DNA of 35,652 nt from Melioribacteraceae bacterium (lineage in GTDB: Bacteria; Bacteroidota; Ignavibacteria; Ignavibacteriales; Melioribacteraceae): assembly GCA_021740785.1 (NCBI GenBank), contig JAIOZI010000052.1, positions 1-35,652 on the forward strand, given 5' to 3'. The notes under the pieces are model-generated. The model made no database searches, had not been told where the DNA came from, and was given only the letters and a program-made list of their open reading frames with translations. Of this stretch, positions 1,076 through 35,652 are shown in pieces. Every line of letters starts with the position of its first letter. Position 1 is the stretch's first letter. The position numbers and the translations under genes were made by a program.

Positions 1076-1891
1076 ATGTTTGGTCAAGATACATCTTATC
1101 ATAAAATACTTCCTAATAATGACGAATATATAACTTCAAACTCAGTTCCAAGAAGAAGCCCGCATATTGCTACATCTATTTTCTATCCGAATATGCTGCG
1201 TATTTTTATATATAGTAATATTAAAGCGCGCAGGGGAATTTACGATGATTATAACTGGGTTAATTCATCACTTGATGTAATTGGTTCCCTTGAAAAAGCG
1301 GGAGTTAAAATTCATGTAAAAGGAATGAAACAGTTGGAGAAATTTGACGGTCCGGCGGTTTTTATCGGCAATCATATGAGCACCCTAGAAACCTTCGCCC
1401 TCCCGAGTTTAATCAATCCCGTTAAAAGAGTGATTTTTGTTATAAAGAAAGAACTTGCTACTTATCCGTTGTTCGGGCGTGTTGCAACCGCACGCGATCC
1501 TATTGTGGTCGGAAGAAAAAATCCTCGTGAGGATTTACAGATTGTTTTCAATGAAGGCGCAGAGTATTTAAAAAAAGGCAGATCGATTATAATTTTTCCA
1601 TCGAGGACTAGATCAAGCAAATTTCAAAGCAGTACCTTTAATTCGCTCGGAATAAAATTAGCGCAGAAAAATAATGTTCATGTCGTTCCTATCGCATTGG
1701 TAACTGATGCATGGAGTAATGGAAAAAGAATAAAAGATTTCGGAAAAATTTATACTAAAAAAGATGTGCATTTCGAATTCGGTGAACCCATGCTGATTGA
1801 AGGAAATTCATCTGAGTATCATCTGAAAACAGTTGATTTTATTAAGCAAAAACTAATCTCTTGGGGCAGAGAAGATTTAATTATCGATTAG
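1076..1891 (+). CDS. PlsC-like 1-acyl-glycerol-phosphate acyltransferase
   Basis: 271 residues. It probably transfers an acyl chain to a lysophosphatidate-type acceptor at the inner membrane in phospholipid synthesis. Seen: block I NHMSTLE at residues 99-105 (family NHX4D, here ending in Glu), a block II-like region around 130-148 (PLFGRV...VVGRKN), block III FPSRTRS at 174-180, and block IV VPIAL at 204-208. Block III normally reads FPEGTRS; the Glu and Gly are replaced by Ser and Arg, although the following Thr and Arg remain. The length is normal for the family, with an N-terminal extension of about 70 residues before the fold. The ATG is the first one after the tRNA-Glu and has a purine-rich stretch upstream. 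It may be transcribed with the tRNAs. The acyl acceptor is not certain. Confidence 0.8.
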   Translation: MFGQDTSYHKILPNNDEYITSNSVPRRSPHIATSIFYPNMLRIFIYSNIKARRGIYDDYNWVNSSLDVIGSLEKAGVKIHVKGMKQLEKFDGPAVFIGNHMSTLETFALPSLINPVKRVIFVIKKELATYPLFGRVATARDPIVVGRKNPREDLQIVFNEGAEYLKKGRSIIIFPSRTRSSKFQSSTFNSLGIKLAQKNNVHVVPIALVTDAWSNGKRIKDFGKIYTKKDVHFEFGEPMLIEGNSSEYHLKTVDFIKQKLISWGREDLIID

Positions 1892-1943
1892 TAACCTACA
1901 CGACCCAAGTCACATAATTATATTATAGGTCAAAACAGCATTC

Positions 1944-2005
1944 CTTAACATTCCCTTAACACACACTTAACATTTCCTTAAAAACAGGGTAACACTCTGT
2001 TAATA
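1944..2005 (+). promoter_or_regulatory. Pho-box-like array of 11-bp phased CTTAACA repeats
   Basis: CTTAACA occurs at 1944, 1955 and 1966, then CTTAAAA at 1977, all exactly 11 bp apart. Weaker matches continue in the same phase: GGTAACA at 1988 and GTTAATA at 1999. An 11-bp period of about 7 conserved bases is the layout of PhoB/PhoP-type sites (E. coli PhoB box, Bacillus PhoP TTAACA repeats, cyanobacterial CTTAAC repeats). The last box merges with an AT-rich TTAATAT that could act as a -10 element. It lies about 55 bp before the TonB receptor start. The identity of the regulator is inferred. Confidence 0.6.
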
Positions 2006-2058
2006 TTCACTCCTTATGTTTGAGCATCAATTTAGTTCAAACAGATGGAGAGAGAGAA

Positions 2059-4965
2059 ATGAACAGTTGTAAAACAAATATGTGGAATTATACGGTGCGG
2101 TTTACGCAAAAGTTATTTTTACTAACAATTTTAGTATTGTTTTTTCAGTCCTCAGTCCACTCACAAGAGTACGGGAAAATTTCCGGTATTGTTGTTGACG
2201 GTGATTTAGGTGAGGCTTTAATCGGCACTAATATTATTGTTGAAGGAACATCAATTGGTGCCGCAACCGATTTGGACGGAAATTTTTTAATTGAAGCAGT
2301 ACCGCCGGGAACTTACAATGTTATTTTTTCAAGTATCGGTTTCGCCAAGAAAACTGTGACCGGGGTGAGTGTTGAACCCGGCAAAGTTGTAAAGCTTGAT
2401 ATCACAATGCTGCCCGAAACATTTGAAACTGATGAAGTAGTAATTACTGCAAAAGCAGTTGAAAATTCAGAAGCCGGTCTATTAATTAAAAGACAGAAGG
2501 CGACAGCAGTTGGCGATGCAGTAAGTTCAGAACAGTTTTCGAGAGCTGGCAGCAGTAACGCCGCAGATGCAGTTAAGCAGGTTGTAGGCGCATCGGTTGT
2601 TGACGGAAAATATGTGTTTGTAAGAGGTTTGGGAGATCGTTATACCAGTACTCAATTAAATGGTGCGGAAATTCCAAGCGTTGATCCTTACAGGAGATCA
2701 GGTTCAATCGACTTAATTCCTTCGAACCTTGTTGATAATATTCAAGCAGTTAAAAGTTTTACACCGGATAAACCCGGAAGTTTTTCCGGCGGAATGGTGG
2801 ATATTAAAACGAAAGATTTTCCGGAAAAATTAAACTTTTCATTTTCAACTTCTACTTCATATAACACGCAATCAACTTTTAAGGATAACTTCCTCGGGGT
2901 TTATTCGGGCGGAACCGATTGGCTGGGGTACGATAATGGGTATAGAAGTGTTCCCGGTGCAATCGGGGATCAATTGCTTGAATTTGATGCAGGAGCAGCA
3001 GTTACAAATGACTCGATGGCTAATTTCATTGATTCAAAAACTTCAGCATTTAATTCGGATATGAATGTTAATAGAGCAAAACCTCCGCTTAATCAATCCT
3101 ATTCTTTATCAGTCGGTAATCAAATTGATCTTTTTGGTAAACCGCTTGGTTTTTTAGCCAGTTTGACGTACAAAAGAAATTTTTCTGGCTATAATGATGG
3201 ACAGTTAAATCGCTGGGATAGAGGTACGATCGACCCAACTAAAACATCACTTGATACTGCTATGGCGATGTCTGATATGAGATCAACAGATGAAGTACTT
3301 TGGGGAAGTGTGGCTAAGTTATCTTATAAGTTCCATCCAAATCATATTATAAGTATCAACGGGTTAATAAATCAGAACGGAGAGAATACATCGAGATACA
3401 TTTTTGGCAGCTATCCGTATGATATGAGTCCTGATAACACATGGGAAGCCAAAATCAATCATTATAAAGAACGAAAACTCCAATCAATACAATTAAGCGG
3501 GGAGCATTTTTTCGGTGATTTTTTGGATTTAAGAATGGAATGGAAAGGTTCTATGATGGGCTCAATACAAAATGAACCTGATATTCGCTACATGTACAGT
3601 TTTGTGACTCCTGACACTCTCTACGGAATAAAATCGAATTTAACTCCGGAACGCTTCTTCAGAAATACGGATGAGGTACAAAAAGAAGCTCAATTAGATT
3701 TATCATTTCCATTCAAAATGTTCAATAGTAAGCAGTTGACATTCAAATTCGGAGGGTTCTACAGTAAAAAGGATCGGGAATTTAAGGAAAGAAGATTTTC
3801 TTATCAGCCAACTACGAAAATGACGAAATTTTACAATGAGGCAGAAGGGCAGGTTGATAAATTTTTTAGTGATGAGTTTATGGGTTTACTCGGTCAAGAT
3901 ACAATAATCTTTAGAGGTGATACAACAGTACGAAATTTACTCGGTCTCTATGTGGAAGAATCAAATCAAATTTCCAGTAACTATGATGCTGATCAAGAAA
4001 TATCGGCATTTTACGGAATGTTTGATGCTCCGGTTTTTGATTGGTTTAGATTGGTTTTCGGAGCTAGAATGGAAAACACCAATCTGTTTGTTAAAAATCA
4101 GACAGATTCTATTGGTACAATAAATACACACGACTTGCTTCCTTCAGTTAACATGATTTTTACACCTTTTAAGGATATGAATATAAGAGTCTCCTACGGT
4201 AGAACTTTAGCGAGACCTACTTTCAGAGAGATTTCACCATTTACGAATTATGATTTTAATGGCGGCGATCAATACAGGGGAAATACAAAACTAAAGAGGA
4301 CTTTAATTGATAATTATGACCTTAGATGGGAATGGTATTCGCGTCCAGGTGAAGTTTTTGCAGTCAGCGGATTTTATAAAAAGTTCTATGATCCGATAGA
4401 ACTGAAAATTGAAGATGCAGTTAATCAAGTACTAACCTGGACAAATGTTCCACAAGCGTATGTTATGGGTTTGGAGTTCGAAGCAAGAACCAGGTTAGAT
4501 TTTGTAACAGATGTTTTATCAAACTTTACAGTTGGCGGCAATTTATCATTAATAAAATCCGAAGTTGATATTGATGCGGATGAATTAGTTAGTATAAAAG
4601 CTTATGATTCAACTGCATCAAACACAAGACCGTTCCAAGGACAATCACCGTTCATTTTCAATGCATATATAAATTATGATAATTATGATGCCGGTTGGTC
4701 TGCCGGAATTTATTATAACGTATTTGGGAAAAGATTAGTCGCTACAGGTTCTGTCGGTGCCCCGGATATGTACGAAGAACCGTTTCACATGCTGAATCTT
4801 TCAGTTTCAAAATCACTATTTGAAGTGATAACGATGTCATTGTCAGTAACAAACTTATTGAATTATAAACAAGAGAGAACTCAAGAATTTAAGGGTACCA
4901 AGTATATATATACTGCTCATACAATGGGCACAAATATTTCGCTTGGTCTGAAATATCAAATTTAG
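2059..4965 (+). CDS. TonB-dependent outer-membrane receptor with carboxypeptidase-like N-terminal domain
   Basis: 968 residues. It imports an unidentified substrate across the outer membrane using TonB energy. Seen: a signal peptide with a hydrophobic core (LFLLTILVLFF) ending near residue 36; a carboxypeptidase-regulatory-like beta-sandwich at about 38-125 (ISGIVVDG, GTSIGAATDLDGNF, VPPGTYNV); a plug domain at about 130-260 (VFVRGLGDRYTSTQLNGAEIP); then a long beta-barrel to the C-terminus. The frame is open from a TTG at 2020, but ATG 2059 is preferred: GGAGAGAG lies just upstream and a clean signal peptide follows. It is 38 bp ahead of the repeat protein that follows and probably shares its mRNA. 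The phased repeats upstream suggest phosphate-starvation control. The ligand cannot be read from the sequence. Confidence 0.9.
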   Translation: MNSCKTNMWNYTVRFTQKLFLLTILVLFFQSSVHSQEYGKISGIVVDGDLGEALIGTNIIVEGTSIGAATDLDGNFLIEAVPPGTYNVIFSSIGFAKKTVTGVSVEPGKVVKLDITMLPETFETDEVVITAKAVENSEAGLLIKRQKATAVGDAVSSEQFSRAGSSNAADAVKQVVGASVVDGKYVFVRGLGDRYTSTQLNGAEIPSVDPYRRSGSIDLIPSNLVDNIQAVKSFTPDKPGSFSGGMVDIKTKDFPEKLNFSFSTSTSYNTQSTFKDNFLGVYSGGTDWLGYDNGYRSVPGAIGDQLLEFDAGAAVTNDSMANFIDSKTSAFNSDMNVNRAKPPLNQSYSLSVGNQIDLFGKPLGFLASLTYKRNFSGYNDGQLNRWDRGTIDPTKTSLDTAMAMSDMRSTDEVLWGSVAKLSYKFHPNHIISINGLINQNGENTSRYIFGSYPYDMSPDNTWEAKINHYKERKLQSIQLSGEHFFGDFLDLRMEWKGSMMGSIQNEPDIRYMYSFVTPDTLYGIKSNLTPERFFRNTDEVQKEAQLDLSFPFKMFNSKQLTFKFGGFYSKKDREFKERRFSYQPTTKMTKFYNEAEGQVDKFFSDEFMGLLGQDTIIFRGDTTVRNLLGLYVEESNQISSNYDADQEISAFYGMFDAPVFDWFRLVFGARMENTNLFVKNQTDSIGTINTHDLLPSVNMIFTPFKDMNIRVSYGRTLARPTFREISPFTNYDFNGGDQYRGNTKLKRTLIDNYDLRWEWYSRPGEVFAVSGFYKKFYDPIELKIEDAVNQVLTWTNVPQAYVMGLEFEARTRLDFVTDVLSNFTVGGNLSLIKSEVDIDADELVSIKAYDSTASNTRPFQGQSPFIFNAYINYDNYDAGWSAGIYYNVFGKRLVATGSVGAPDMYEEPFHMLNLSVSKSLFEVITMSLSVTNLLNYKQERTQEFKGTKYIYTAHTMGTNISLGLKYQI

Positions 4966-16144: not shown

Positions 16145-17049
16145 TATCAGAAAAAACTGACTACAGAAAATATCTCGATCCTGCATTTGTATCCAAACTC
16201 AAATCTCTTGAACTGAAAGCCAAAATGGTTGTTGAAGGTTTTATGGTCGGGCTTCATAAAAGTCCGTACCATGGCTTCAGTGTTGAATTCAGTGAACACC
16301 GCTCGTATAATCAAGGCGACCCGATTAAAAATATCGACTGGAAAGTTTACGGTAAATCGGAGAGGTTTTACATTAAACAATATGAGGAGGAAACAAATTT
16401 AATCTGTTCTGTTCTTATCGATATCAGCAAATCGATGGATTTTAAAAATGAAGGGGCGATCACTAAACTAGAGTATGCAAACACATTGGCAGCTGGTTTG
16501 ATTTATTTGATGCAGCAGCAGCAAGATGCTACCGGTTTAACTCTCTATTCCGATAAAATTGAGAAACAGCTTCCGCCCAAATCGAACAGAGTTTATCTTA
16601 AAACATTATTGACTGCGATTGAAGCGGTAGAACCATCAAATCAAACAAACACGGCTGCATGTTTATTTGAAGTGGCTGAAAAAATTAAAAAAAGAGGATT
16701 GGTAATAGTTTTATCCGATCTCTTTGATGATCCGAAGAAAATCATCGACTCGTTGAAAAGACTCCACTTTAAGAAAAATGAAGTTATTGTTTTTCAAATT
16801 CTTGATCCTATTGAAAAAAGTTTTGCATTCGGTAAGGATGCGATTTTTGTTGATAAGGAGACGGATGAAGAGATGACGACTCAGCCGTATCAAATTCAAC
16901 GGGCGTATCAAGAATCACTTGCCGAATATATTGAACACATCAAAACAGAATGCTTGAATAACGGTATTGAATATAATTTAATTGATACTTCAACACCCTA
17001 CGATAAAGCGATATTCAGTTACTTCAAAAAGAGATCACGCCTGAATTAA
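16141..17049 (+). CDS. DUF58 protein with von Willebrand A-like domain
   Basis: 302 residues. Seen: the DUF58 core at 44-85 (HGFSVEFSEHRSYNQGDPI, then KNIDWKVYGKSERFYIKQYEEE), directly followed by a VWA-type fold with the metal-binding DxSxS motif DISKS at 94-98, and LVIVLSDLFDD near 190. Such proteins usually sit beside a MoxR AAA+ ATPase and BatA/BatB; none is present here, only the upstream lipoprotein. The start is GTG within the overlap GTGA; the conserved N-terminal region (YRKYLDPAFVSKL) would be lost from later ATGs, which supports this start. Cytoplasmic, no signal peptide. Its stop codon interlocks with that of the convergent mutase gene. Biological role unknown. Confidence 0.85.
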   Translation: MISEKTDYRKYLDPAFVSKLKSLELKAKMVVEGFMVGLHKSPYHGFSVEFSEHRSYNQGDPIKNIDWKVYGKSERFYIKQYEEETNLICSVLIDISKSMDFKNEGAITKLEYANTLAAGLIYLMQQQQDATGLTLYSDKIEKQLPPKSNRVYLKTLLTAIEAVEPSNQTNTAACLFEVAEKIKKRGLVIVLSDLFDDPKKIIDSLKRLHFKKNEVIVFQILDPIEKSFAFGKDAIFVDKETDEEMTTQPYQIQRAYQESLAEYIEHIKTECLNNGIEYNLIDTSTPYDKAIFSYFKKRSRLN

Positions 17050-18401
17050 TCCAATAATTCTTTAATCTGATCGAAATATTTTTTCGTATAATTTTCCGCA
17101 AGTTCTATTGTTTCAGCTTCAGCGATACAGCGTAAAATTGGTTCTGTATTTGATTTTCTCAAATGTACCCAGTGATCTTCAAAATCAATACGCAGTCCGT
17201 CATCTGTATTAATTTTTTGATCTGAATATTTTTCAACCAATTTTGAAATAAGTTCATCCGGGTTATTTTTCCCAATCCCAATTTTCTTTTTTACTATGGA
17301 GTATTGTGGTAGTGAGCTTTTGAGTTCGCTCATTTTTCCGCCGAACTCAAGTAAGTGTTGAAGTGTAATCGCAGTCCCGACTAAAGCATCTCTCCCATAA
17401 TGAACAGCCGGATAAATAACGCCGCCGCTGCCTTCTCCGCCAATCACCGCACCGGTTTTTTTCATCAGTTCAACAACATTTGCCTCACCAACCGGTGATC
17501 TGAACGTTTTACATCCGGCTTCACTTGCCACATCTTCAACGGCGCGGGTAGTAGATAAATTTACAACTACGTCACCATTTGTTTTTGATAACACAAATTT
17601 TACGGCTTGAGTAATTGTATTTTCTTCAATGAAAGGTTCGCCATCTTCAGTAAGCAAAACCAGGCGGTCAACATCGGGATCAACTACAATTCCCAAATCC
17701 ACATCATTTTCTTTTATCAATTTTATTGTTTCAGTTAAGTTTTCCGGTATCGGTTCAGGCAGCCGCGGGAATATTCCGTTTTTCTCACAGTTTAATTCAA
17801 TAACCTCACACCCGAATTGCGTTAATAATTCCGGCATAATATAAGAACCGGCTCCGTTAACGCAATCAAGTAGAACTCTGAATTTTCTTTTCTTAATCGC
17901 ATCGACATCAATGTACTGCATATTCAAAACATCATTCATATGATTCTGTAAACCTTCTTCGTATCTGGTTATTTTACCAAGCTCGTTCCACTTTTTATAT
18001 TCCGTCTGACTTACTTCCATCTTATCCAGCATCAATTTATTCTCAGCCGCAGTCATAAATTCGCCAAGATTATTCAACAGTTTCAGTGCATTCCATTCAT
18101 TTGGATTGTGGCTGGCTGAAATTGAAATTCCACCGACTGCTCCAAGTTTTCTTACATTATACAATACGGTTGGAGTCGGACAAATACCGATATCAATTAC
18201 ATCATTTCCTTTTGCCGCTAATGTTCCCGTTAGTATTTGTTTTACCATTTCCCCGGATATTCTTCCGTCGCTGCCTACAACTATTTTCCCGGCGCCGCAA
18301 AAATCAGCGTAAGCAGATGCATATTTTGCAATCGAATGCGGGTCTAATCCGTCGCCTACAATTCCTCTAATTCCAGAAACACTCACCATCAATGTTGGCA
18401 T
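17046..18401 (-). CDS. glmM: Phosphohexomutase, probable phosphoglucosamine mutase
   Basis: 451 residues, normal for the alpha-D-phosphohexomutase family. It would interconvert glucosamine-6-P and glucosamine-1-P for UDP-GlcNAc and cell-wall synthesis. Seen: the N-terminal SGIRGIVGDGL; the phosphoserine loop SASHNP with Ser97; the metal-binding loop VVDPDVDRLVLL near 250; the sugar-binding loop GGEGSGGV near 320; and the phosphate-binding RKSNTEP near 425. The SASHNPNEWNALKLLN context looks more like the archaeal-type GlmM branch than the E. coli one (NGIKFF), and a phosphomannomutase or phosphoglucomutase role is possible. Convergent with the DUF58 gene: the TTAA at 17046-17049 supplies both stop codons. 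Its promoter region faces the palindromic nest and the divergent nth gene. Confidence 0.85.
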   Translation of the reverse strand: MPTLMVSVSGIRGIVGDGLDPHSIAKYASAYADFCGAGKIVVGSDGRISGEMVKQILTGTLAAKGNDVIDIGICPTPTVLYNVRKLGAVGGISISASHNPNEWNALKLLNNLGEFMTAAENKLMLDKMEVSQTEYKKWNELGKITRYEEGLQNHMNDVLNMQYIDVDAIKKRKFRVLLDCVNGAGSYIMPELLTQFGCEVIELNCEKNGIFPRLPEPIPENLTETIKLIKENDVDLGIVVDPDVDRLVLLTEDGEPFIEENTITQAVKFVLSKTNGDVVVNLSTTRAVEDVASEAGCKTFRSPVGEANVVELMKKTGAVIGGEGSGGVIYPAVHYGRDALVGTAITLQHLLEFGGKMSELKSSLPQYSIVKKKIGIGKNNPDELISKLVEKYSDQKINTDDGLRIDFEDHWVHLRKSNTEPILRCIAEAETIELAENYTKKYFDQIKELLD

Positions 18402-18491
18402 TACTCCTCCGTATTATCATATTGAATTGTCAAAATTAACAAAAAGTGATTAACCGAAAGAATGATTTGAATAAAAAAATCATTATTTTTT

Positions 18492-18582
18492 AACCCAAAA
18501 AATTCATTGGAAATGAATTTTTTGCCGTTGGCCGCTCATAAAATGTTTTAATAAAACATTTTATGTTGCGGGGTTAACCCCG
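18492..18582. repeat. Cluster of strong palindromes, left half of a composite element
   Basis: Three adjacent palindromes lie in the phosphomutase/nth gap. The first has 12-bp perfect arms (18497-18508 and 18512-18523) with the 3-nt centre GGA. The second has 14-bp perfect arms (CATAAAATGTTTTA at 18537-18550, its complement at 18552-18565) around one base. The third is the 14-bp perfect palindrome CGGGGTTAACCCCG at 18569-18582. The linker GCCGTTGGCC separates the first two. The region begins AACCCA and, together with the next repeat, ends TGGGTT at 18711. Neither a start codon nor a plausible peptide is seen here. Confidence 0.9.
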
Positions 18583-18711
18583 ACAATTTGTAAGAAAAAT
18601 ATTTTACTCAAATAACGAATTCCAAAATTTCTATATGGTTAGGTATTTGATATTTCTCAACTTACAAATTGTCGGCCCGAAGGGCAGATTTTCCAATGGA
18701 AAATCTGGGTT
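18576..18711 (+). repeat. 136-bp dispersed repeat, copy A (MITE-like)
   Basis: Matches the reverse complement of 35517-35652 at 134 of 136 positions, without gaps. It holds a perfect 15-bp inverted repeat (CCGACAATTTGTAAG at 18580-18594, CTTACAAATTGTCGG at 18661-18675) around a 66-bp AT-rich core. A GCCCGAAGGGC hairpin follows, then an 11-bp-arm palindrome at 18685-18707. It ends 28 bp before the likely nth start codon, so the nth leader RNA would carry these hairpins. No transposase and no convincing target duplication are visible. Confidence 0.95.
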
Positions 18712-18739
18712 TAATTCTTTTAAAAAATCTAGAATTAGA

Positions 18740-19462
18740 ATGCGCGATAATAAATTTCATCAAATGATAAAAACCGTAAACAAACTATTGATCAATAAAT
18801 TCGGCATTCCGAAGAAGAATAAAAAAGATCCGGATCCGGTTGATATGATGATTGCAACAATTCTATCTCAGAATACGAATGATAACAATTCCTATAAAGC
18901 TTACAAAAATTTACGAAGTAGATACAAAACATGGGAAGAAATTCTCAAAGCCCGCGTTACATCAATTGAGAAAGAAATTAGAATTGCCGGGTTGGGCAAG
19001 CAAAAATCAAATGCAATTAAGAATTTTTTAGTTGATCTTAAAAAGAAAACCGGCTCCCTGAATCTCAATCACATCACAAAGATGGAAGAAAATGAAGCCA
19101 TAAGTGAGTTGATAAATTATAAGGGAGTGGGAGTTAAAACCGCAAGCTGCGTGTTACTATTTTCGATGGGCAGAAATGTTTGTCCTGTCGATACACACGT
19201 CCACCGAACCGTAAACCGTATTGGAATTGTAAATGAAAAATCACCGGATAAAACATTCTTTGCACTGAATAAAAACTTCCCGCAGATGATTGCACATTCT
19301 TTTCATACAAATTTGATAAGGCTGGGAAGAGAAATATGTAAACCGAAAAAGCCTTCCTGTGGAATCTGTCCACTCGAAAAACTCTGCCAATTCGACGGAA
19401 AAAACTTTGAAAATTCTGAGTTGAAGAAAGAAAACAGCTTCATGTTATTGGATAATGTTTAG
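18740..19462 (+). CDS. nth: Endonuclease III-family DNA glycosylase/AP lyase
   Basis: 240 residues from ATG 18740. It excises oxidised pyrimidines and nicks the abasic site in base excision repair. Seen: the helix-hairpin-helix INYKGVGVKTAS with catalytic Lys133, the catalytic Asp151 in CPVDTHVHR, and a C-terminal [4Fe-4S] motif C200-x6-C207-x2-C210-x5-C216. The frame stays open back to 18635, but those 35 extra residues are encoded by the dispersed repeat (18576-18711) and resemble nothing in the family. The start is therefore placed at 18740 (18764 is also possible). There is no obvious Shine-Dalgarno sequence. Divergent from the mutase gene. Confidence 0.88.
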   Translation: MRDNKFHQMIKTVNKLLINKFGIPKKNKKDPDPVDMMIATILSQNTNDNNSYKAYKNLRSRYKTWEEILKARVTSIEKEIRIAGLGKQKSNAIKNFLVDLKKKTGSLNLNHITKMEENEAISELINYKGVGVKTASCVLLFSMGRNVCPVDTHVHRTVNRIGIVNEKSPDKTFFALNKNFPQMIAHSFHTNLIRLGREICKPKKPSCGICPLEKLCQFDGKNFENSELKKENSFMLLDNV

Positions 19463-35516: not shown

Positions 35517-35652
35517 AACCCAGATTTTCCATTGGAAAATCTGCCCTTCGGGCCGACAATTTGTAAGTTGAGAAATATCAAATACTTAGCCATATAGAAA
35601 TTTTGGAATTCGTTATTTGAGTAAAATATTTTTCTTACAAATTGTCGGGGTT
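35517..35652 (-). repeat. 136-bp dispersed repeat, copy B (inverted relative to copy A)
   Basis: The reverse complement matches 18576-18711 at 134 of 136 positions. It carries the same hairpins: the CAGATTTTCC palindrome, GCCCTTCGGGC, and the 15-bp inverted pair ending at CTTACAAATTGTCGG. The window ends inside or at the edge of the element, so it may continue. It sits right behind the atpC terminator, a non-disruptive location. Confidence 0.95.

Follow-up and report, generated by a model that had tools for sequence, protein, structure and literature searches.

The block of palindromes at 18492–18711 of the window (the whole stretch of DNA analysed, 35,652 nt, which is the entire contig C5 of a Melioribacteraceae genome of 4,854,194 bases in 115 contigs) is a copy of a type II MITE, 216 bp long, whose ends fit the IS1380 type and which was probably moved in trans by an IS1380-type transposase. 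The kind of element is already known; what is new is its conserved hairpin scaffold, a series of seven hairpins (H1 to H7, Table 1) whose order is shared across genera, with compensatory changes in the arms. Type II prokaryotic MITEs (PMC10969869) are short, gene-less, AT-rich, and intergenic, have terminal inverted repeats, target duplications, and a stable fold, and are moved in trans. The element has these features in common with them, movement in trans being the probable reading of its sequence, but differs from that description in having an ordered chain of seven hairpins rather than one long one, and in that the arms change between genera while the order stays. MITEs have usually been treated as whatever separates two transposase-binding ends; a gene-less element with a kept hairpin order makes the role of a MITE core fold in transposition testable.

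The block lies between a phosphoglucomutase/phosphomannomutase-like (PGM/PMM) gene and an HhH-GPD, nth-like gene, with strands and identities as given in the initial annotation; the latter gene scores 110 bits with the nth model, under that model's cut-off of 212. The six inverted repeats reported earlier are all in place, except that the arms of the first are 13 bp and not 12, and a mini-hairpin, GCC-GTT-GGC, can be added to the original list. The bordering AACCCA and TGGGTT are also present, but each includes 2 bp of a target duplication and so extends beyond the element proper. The palindromes are genuine and far exceed what chance would produce: folded as RNA, 18492–18711 reaches -73.7 kcal/mol where shuffles average -41.9 (z = -6.92), and folded as DNA the 216-bp element gives z = -9.67, with 0 of 200 shuffles as stable in either case. 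Like other prokaryotic MITEs, it is bounded by terminal inverted repeats, which are 17 bp long and imperfect (CCCAAAAAATTCATTGG and CCCAGATTTTCCATTGG).

Two features of the locus concern coding sequence. The nth-like frame is open upstream into the MITE (18635–18740), with an in-frame ATG at 18635, and the MITE could give the nth-like protein an N-terminal extension. Part of the H5 arm and loop (18590–18617) is similar to the terminal codons (VRKMILLK stop) of genes at L056 and L057 (genomes G010 and G032), which perhaps represents a captured gene tail, or else chance. These two loop matches were considered as possible elements and rejected, being read as C-terminal codons of genes.

Table 1. 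Features of the element, its surroundings in the window, and two IS1634-family elements found in or near other copies. Positions are those of the window unless a locus is named.
Feature	Position	Strand	Remarks
PGM/PMM gene	17046–18401	-	
Left target-site duplication	18489–18493		TTTAA
MITE	18494–18709	+	216 bp, CCC...GGG
Left terminal inverted repeat	18494–18510	+	CCCAAAAAATTCATTGG; 16.2 bits on IS1380-type end profile
Hairpin H1 (left end)	18497–18523	+	12–13 bp arms, loop 3
Mini-hairpin H2	18524–18532	+	GCC-GTT-GGC; GCC-GAA-GGC in many relatives
Hairpin H3	18537–18565	+	14-bp arms, loop 1; arm letters vary between genera with compensation
Hairpin H4	18570–18581	+	GGGG-TTAA-CCCC; centre of the sole above-shuffle local alignment to the G271 element
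Hairpin H5	18582–18673	+	13–15 bp arms; 66-nt loop, poorly alignable between genera
Mini-hairpin H6	18675–18685	+	GCCC-GAA-GGGC
Hairpin H7 (right end)	18686–18706	+	9–11 bp arms
Right terminal inverted repeat	18693–18709	-	CCCAGATTTTCCATTGG; 13.6 bits on IS1380-type end profile
Right target-site duplication	18710–18714		TTTAA
Inverted repeat 1	18496–18508/18512–18524		13-bp arms
Inverted repeat 2	18537–18550/18552–18565		14-bp arms
Inverted repeat 3			CGGGGTTAACCCCG; 7-bp arms
Inverted repeat 4	18580–18594/18661–18675		15-bp arms
Inverted repeat 5			GCCC-GAA-GGGC; 4-bp arms
Inverted repeat 6			CAGATTTTCCA-A-TGGAAAATCTG; 11-bp arms
HhH-GPD, nth-like gene	18740–19462	+	
Second MITE copy	35517–35652	-	Ended by contig end
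IS1634-family element in MITE copy	L140 (own genome C48) 1571–3579		499-codon frame; ends CCCGACTTGTGA/CCTGACTTGTGA
IS1634-family element	L220 (G153 C361) 1213–3090		58 bp from truncated MITE, inside another repeat (AGCGGAGCGACAAAGAATCTCC...)

The element is present in many copies. A similarity search of the window's own genome gave 201 candidates, the best 40 of which were scored, all with at least 93% identity. Scans with end patterns found 95 matches to the left end and 178 to the palindromic right end, many of the latter counted on both strands, and a profile search of the stretches fetched from these lists (E < 1e-6, duplicates removed) gave 72 end-to-end hits, two of which (L043 and L114) are without much of the core, and 40 partial ones, which include contig-end pieces and a few split copies, one of which (L101) is possibly counted twice. 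The copies are 85–99% identical to their consensus (median 95%). No transposase gene lies inside them, the longest hit being 220 bp, with the exception of L140, which has a nested IS1634 element. Many contigs terminate within a MITE copy, which accounts for the short second copy in the window: the earlier observation that only the right 136 bp of the block was shared is an artefact, since this copy is cut by the contig end, which is also the window end. At two loci (L038 301–327 and L044, on contigs C37 and C94) there are 27-bp remnants, and at a third (L118) a 50-bp one, all of which retain the two MITE ends and are flanked by perfect duplications (TTTAA, TTAAT); such short copies reflect either later deletion or a core that is dispensable for movement. 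No long element with MITE ends was found among the matches listed for this genome or in the named relatives.

In an alignment of 30 copies the left and right flanks covary. An exact 5-bp flank duplication is found at 55 of the 69 end-to-end copies with distinct flanks (after removal of the flank duplicates L020 and L023), a 4-bp one at two, and a 6-bp one at none; when right flanks were shuffled among copies, 5-bp identity averaged 10.7 and reached 20 at most. The commonest duplications are TTTAA, TTAAA, TTTAT, and TTAAT, with TTTAG, ATAAT, CTAAT, and TTGAT as rarer covarying variants. There is also an empty paralogous site, L087, in a somewhat diverged segment, with CTAAT once where L018 has it twice, around the MITE. 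A larger repeated segment with the MITE at one fixed site occurs at L018, L020, L023, L032, L037, L039, L047, L050, and L129, and L087 is a MITE-free copy of it. By a simple ORF rule (100 codons), 60 of 65 sites are outside ORFs and five inside, leaving out five of the 70 full copies with fewer than 300 bases on a side; at the 50 sites with both neighbors, these are tandem in 28 cases, convergent in 11, and divergent in 11. The multiple copies, 5-bp target duplications, empty site, and relatives in other genera bear out the suggestion of a mobile unit, one of several offered in the initial annotation, and the block is neither unique in its genome nor absent from relatives.

Within the order (Ignavibacteriales), the element was detected in 16 of 164 genomes, including the window's own, representing 12 of 68 genera and two families; four candidates were scored per genome, and some matches are short pieces. 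Full copies come from seven genera (own, G064, G124, G052/G048, G153/G152, G142, and G092), and the copy matched in G016 (L207) has decayed. Those of G064, in the other family of the order, are 89–90% identical to the window's copy, a likeness that suggests a fairly recent transfer. In a collection of 84,980 named genomes, which may leave out the window's own, the exact left-end pattern matched 37 stretches in five genomes: Ignavibacteriales CG_4_9_14_3_um_filter_30_11 (30), Bacteroidetes WY2.bin74 (three), Ignavibacteria X2_MaxBin.003 (two), and Bacteroidetes DBS2-4.bin16 and a Melioribacter roseus MAG (one each). There were no exact matches to this pattern in viral contigs. Across the phylum, a left-half model matched six of 395 genomes: the window's own, three of the same family, G271, and G429, the last of which (E = 9.6e-4) was rejected as it looks like an unrelated hairpin. 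The elements in G271, from another family of the phylum, have the same hairpin order with different arm sequences, and duplications of TTTAA (L211) and ATAAT (L214). Local alignments of a G271 element to the own and G124 elements score 37 and 34 (shuffle maxima 28 and 26), covering the H4 region plus a few adjacent bases; by eye, H2 and H6 are also similar (nine and 10 of 11 letters), and L206/L211 differ from L214 by paired changes in H6 and H7. No description of a repeat of this kind in Ignavibacteria was found in the literature searched, subscription journals being outside its scope. For the Ignavibacteriales, this adds a high-copy repeat that breaks short-read assemblies.

The order in full relatives is CCC, H1, H2, H3, H4, H5 with its variable loop, H6, H7, GGG, with decay in some. 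H2 is mostly GCC-GAA-GGC, H4 is GGGG-TTAA-CCCC, and H6 is mostly GCCC-GAA-GGGC. Nineteen elements were aligned, chosen by eye from relatives and own copies, with partial ones and most own copies omitted; one row (WPAE) probably comes from the genome that also supplied the two G153 rows (the L203 and L199 sequences agree in the compared stretch). Over 63 pairs, 92.8% of cells are paired. Two-sided change is seen in 22 of these pairs, and in 74 cells versus 5–22 when the partners were slid, with H3 (nine of 15 pairs) and H5 (eight of 13) the biggest contributors. Copies within the own genome have a different pattern. Changes private to one copy show no preference between stems (81 in 128 sites) and loops (47 in 88 sites), but those shared by several copies are depleted from stems (57, versus 81 in loops); for inner stems alone, there are 55 private and 39 shared changes versus 47 and 81 in loops (Fisher P = 0.0017). 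The reading given to this is that inserted copies drift, while still-jumping lineages have kept their stems. That stems resist shared but not private changes suggests that the structure serves the spread of the element and not each site.

Other explanations for the folded arms were considered. Template-switch repair could copy one arm to the other and produce covariation in hairpins that have no role; short-loop palindromes are homogenised by template switching, and the loops of H1, H3, H4, H6, and H7 are short. However, H5 covaries too, with a loop of 21–68 nt in the aligned elements, and two-sided changes within the own genome are rare (22 cells, of which 11 restore a pair). As the whole account this is unlikely, although it stays a partial alternative for the arm covariation. 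The strong fold and the covariation would also be expected of a dispersed structured RNA or a transcript-level regulator (terminator or riboregulator) with hairpins kept because they work as RNA, as proposed in the initial annotation, and one terminator-like match is found at 18685–18707, where 0.2 are expected. This is highly improbable given that no Rfam family matches over the element at gathering scores, that the neighbor counts above show no preferred orientation to genes, and that private changes strike stems and loops equally often, which means that the fold is not maintained in individual copies. If RNA were the target, G.U mismatches should be tolerated more than A.C, and they are not: as mismatch types the two number 27 and 32 in the own genome (P = 0.60) and 22 and 18 between genera (P = 0.64). 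Counted as cells, there are 66 G.U versus 153 A.C in the stems of 70 own copies, 52 of the latter in H4, the site of a common shared variant, and 33 versus 24 between genera. Dense hairpins, intergenic positions, and high copy number also recall REP or IS200-IS605-type elements, which a Y1 transposase moves in single-stranded form. Such elements are not known to make target duplications, and the exact 5-bp duplications described above refute this reading, whose probability is close to nil.

A relation to IS1380 or piggyBac was guessed from the CCC termini and TTAA-like target before any transposase had been found. The first IS1380 transposase was then met as a weak match when the 16 MITE-bearing genomes were scanned for IS1634. 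It belongs to the MITE-bearing genome G048 (locus L262), scores 262.9 bits with NF033539 (cut-off 180) and 173.3 with PF13701 (cut-off 34.7), and lies between ends CCCAGATATTTCAGTAG and CCCAGATTTTGCAGTAG, located by an inverted-repeat search independent of the MITE sequence. Another, at L265, has CCCAAAATTGTCAATAG and CCCAAAATTGTCATTAG as its ends and is flanked by ATAAT on either side. An apparently shortened IS1380 element at L267 begins with CCCAAAAAATTCATTAG, which is the MITE left end of many relatives, and L289 begins with CCCAAAAAAGTCATTAG. A search with the L262 transposase matched 26 of the 164 genomes, fragments included. CCC-type ends were seen at 10 of 22 IS1380-like loci inspected, amounting to nine places, as L290 repeats L266 (L263, which is the L262 element, L264, L265, L266, L267, L270, L272, L274, and L289), with both ends in hand for L262, L264, L265, L266, and L267. 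The other 12 loci, most of them distant (21–33% identity) or fragments, had no convincing CCC-type end. Target duplications of these copies vary, from a perfect 5 bp at L265 to TTAA only at L264, none exact at L262, and none at L266. At L289 (G083 C53; 1330–1430), L265 (1390–1440), and L267 (1339–1400), a palindrome (CTAATGAC..CATTAG) lies inward of the IS1380-type left end and recalls the hairpin beside the MITE left end.

The MITE ends match those of autonomous IS1380 elements, namely the L262 and L264 pairs, which were located without a MITE pattern, and the L265 and L266 pairs, located with one. In many relatives the MITE ends conform to a rough IS1380 end consensus, CCCAAANNNTNCANTAG. In a profile built from 11 IS ends, excluding the two from L267, the own MITE ends have the scores given in Table 1 and those of G124 and G153 reach 19.3–23.0 bits; the IS ends themselves score 10.0–22.9 bits when each genome is left out in turn. 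The profile is partly circular, as the L265, L266, L270, L272, and L274 ends were found via a MITE-derived pattern. The test set of 2,747 CCC-starting 17-mers itself contains MITE copies. The score of the own left end is equalled or exceeded by 40 of these 17-mers, including 37 MITE left ends, and that of the own right end by 63, including at least 53 MITE ends. When the profile is restricted to the four ends from L262 and L264, MITE ends still rank highest: 45 of the 17-mers then equal or exceed the own left end (37 being MITE left ends) and 63 the own right end (no fewer than 53 being from MITEs). Genomes with the MITE and with IS1380 matches, fragments counted, overlap in six cases versus 2.54 expected (P = 0.023), and G048 holds both the MITE and an IS1380 transposase; in 10 of the 16 genomes with the MITE, IS1380 gives no match at 1e-10. 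Nothing in the own genome matches PF13701 (IS1380) at E ≤ 0.001. The sole IS1380 trace found there is a 101-residue piece with two stops (C16:10011–10313), about 0.7 kb from a MITE copy; an intact copy could be missing from the assembly, as contigs break at repeats. The own genome also lacks a match to PF13546 (DDE_5), a family of IS701 type. Among the loci inspected, no element was seen to combine the MITE hairpins with an IS1380 gene.

Movement by an IS1634-family or some other transposase is quite improbable, though several observations point that way. IS1634 elements duplicate 5–6 bp AT-rich targets (PMC2266710). Both PF01609 genes of the own genome are of this family, one of them inside a MITE copy; a G153 element lies close to a truncated MITE (Table 1); and an IS1634 relative, L234, has a candidate end pair with TTTAA on both sides. 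However, the IS1634 ends near MITEs are CCTGACTTG-like and unlike the MITE ends, and genomes with the two overlap in three cases versus 1.95 expected (P = 0.31). The L140 element was dropped as a partner because its ends differ and its flanking repeat of about 150 bp is duplicated MITE sequence, which makes it a nested insertion. Long target duplications have been reported for IS1634/IS1549 (PMC2266710), and L140 is a natural case of them.

The favored explanation is that an IS1380-type transposase moved the MITE in trans, probably by cut and paste and into TTWAN-like AT-rich targets, since its 17-bp ends appear to be of the kind used by IS1380-family DDE transposases in the Ignavibacteriales. 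The seven-hairpin chain may well be part of a good transposition substrate, because stems are constrained among source lineages and drift freely in inserted copies. During transposition or replication it could act in single-stranded or cruciform form; alternatively, it could provide subterminal binding sites. The initial annotation's interpretation was thus right in part: a cruciform-forming element is only compatible with the structure kept between genera, and a protein-binding scaffold is apt only insofar as the ends fit those recognized by a transposase. Since a broken fragment is all that was found of an IS1380 transposase in the own genome, the MITE copies there have probably lost their mobility; this remnant and the degree of identity among copies fit a past burst, with the element now at rest in this genome. 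No host function at this locus is needed as an explanation.

A more tentative proposal, and a rather doubtful one, is that the element is a fused pair of palindromic modules, CCC[H1-H2-H3]GGGG-TTAA-CCCC[H5-H6-H7]GGG, joined at a shared TTAA, with a fixed hairpin order, outer ends that track different IS1380 transposases, and inner arms that are rewritten. The junction would explain why H4 is nearly always GGGG-TTAA-CCCC. Hints of this are copies of the left module only, flanked on either side by TTAAT (L124, plus L123 provided that it ends in GGGA), copies of the right module only (L115 with TTAA and L046 with ATAA), and a GGG-TTAAA-CCCC junction near the IS1380 remnant L272. Against it, lone modules could have arisen by subsequent deletion between TTAA repeats. 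In addition, the inner ends score from -20 to +9 bits, while the range is 6 to 23 for 39 of the 40 outer ends, the other one scoring -1.9. If the two-module origin were true, shape and not letters would be selected by the transposition or replication machinery, and this would be a MITE class held together by its fold.

The two IS1380 family examples in the table of PMC4133298 have 16–21 bp repeats and 4- and 5-bp duplications; the MITE is like them in its end repeats of about 17 bp and its 4- or 5-bp target duplication and, for the members in this order, also in the terminal CCC, but has no transposase and no sequence seen in common with the IS core. PiggyBac elements of eukaryotes have a TTAA target and, as compared in PMC10140906, usually CCC/GGG termini, and IS1380 transposases are called their distant relatives there. 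The MITE is similar in target and termini, while piggyBac elements are large and eukaryotic, with a 4-bp TTAA duplication. TIMEs, Tn3-derived MITEs of Pseudomonas, are likewise small, non-autonomous, and foldable with 5–6 bp duplications, but have 38-bp Tn3-type ends and depend on another transposase family (PMC4133298). REP and BIME sequences (PMC3733652, PMC2817692) are also high-copy palindromes, from which the MITE differs in its target duplications and DDE-type ends.

Elsewhere in the window, a unit of about 110 bp is repeated four times in tandem at the start of the contig (1–419), and 604–1023 contains four consecutive tRNA genes, the last two nearly identical.
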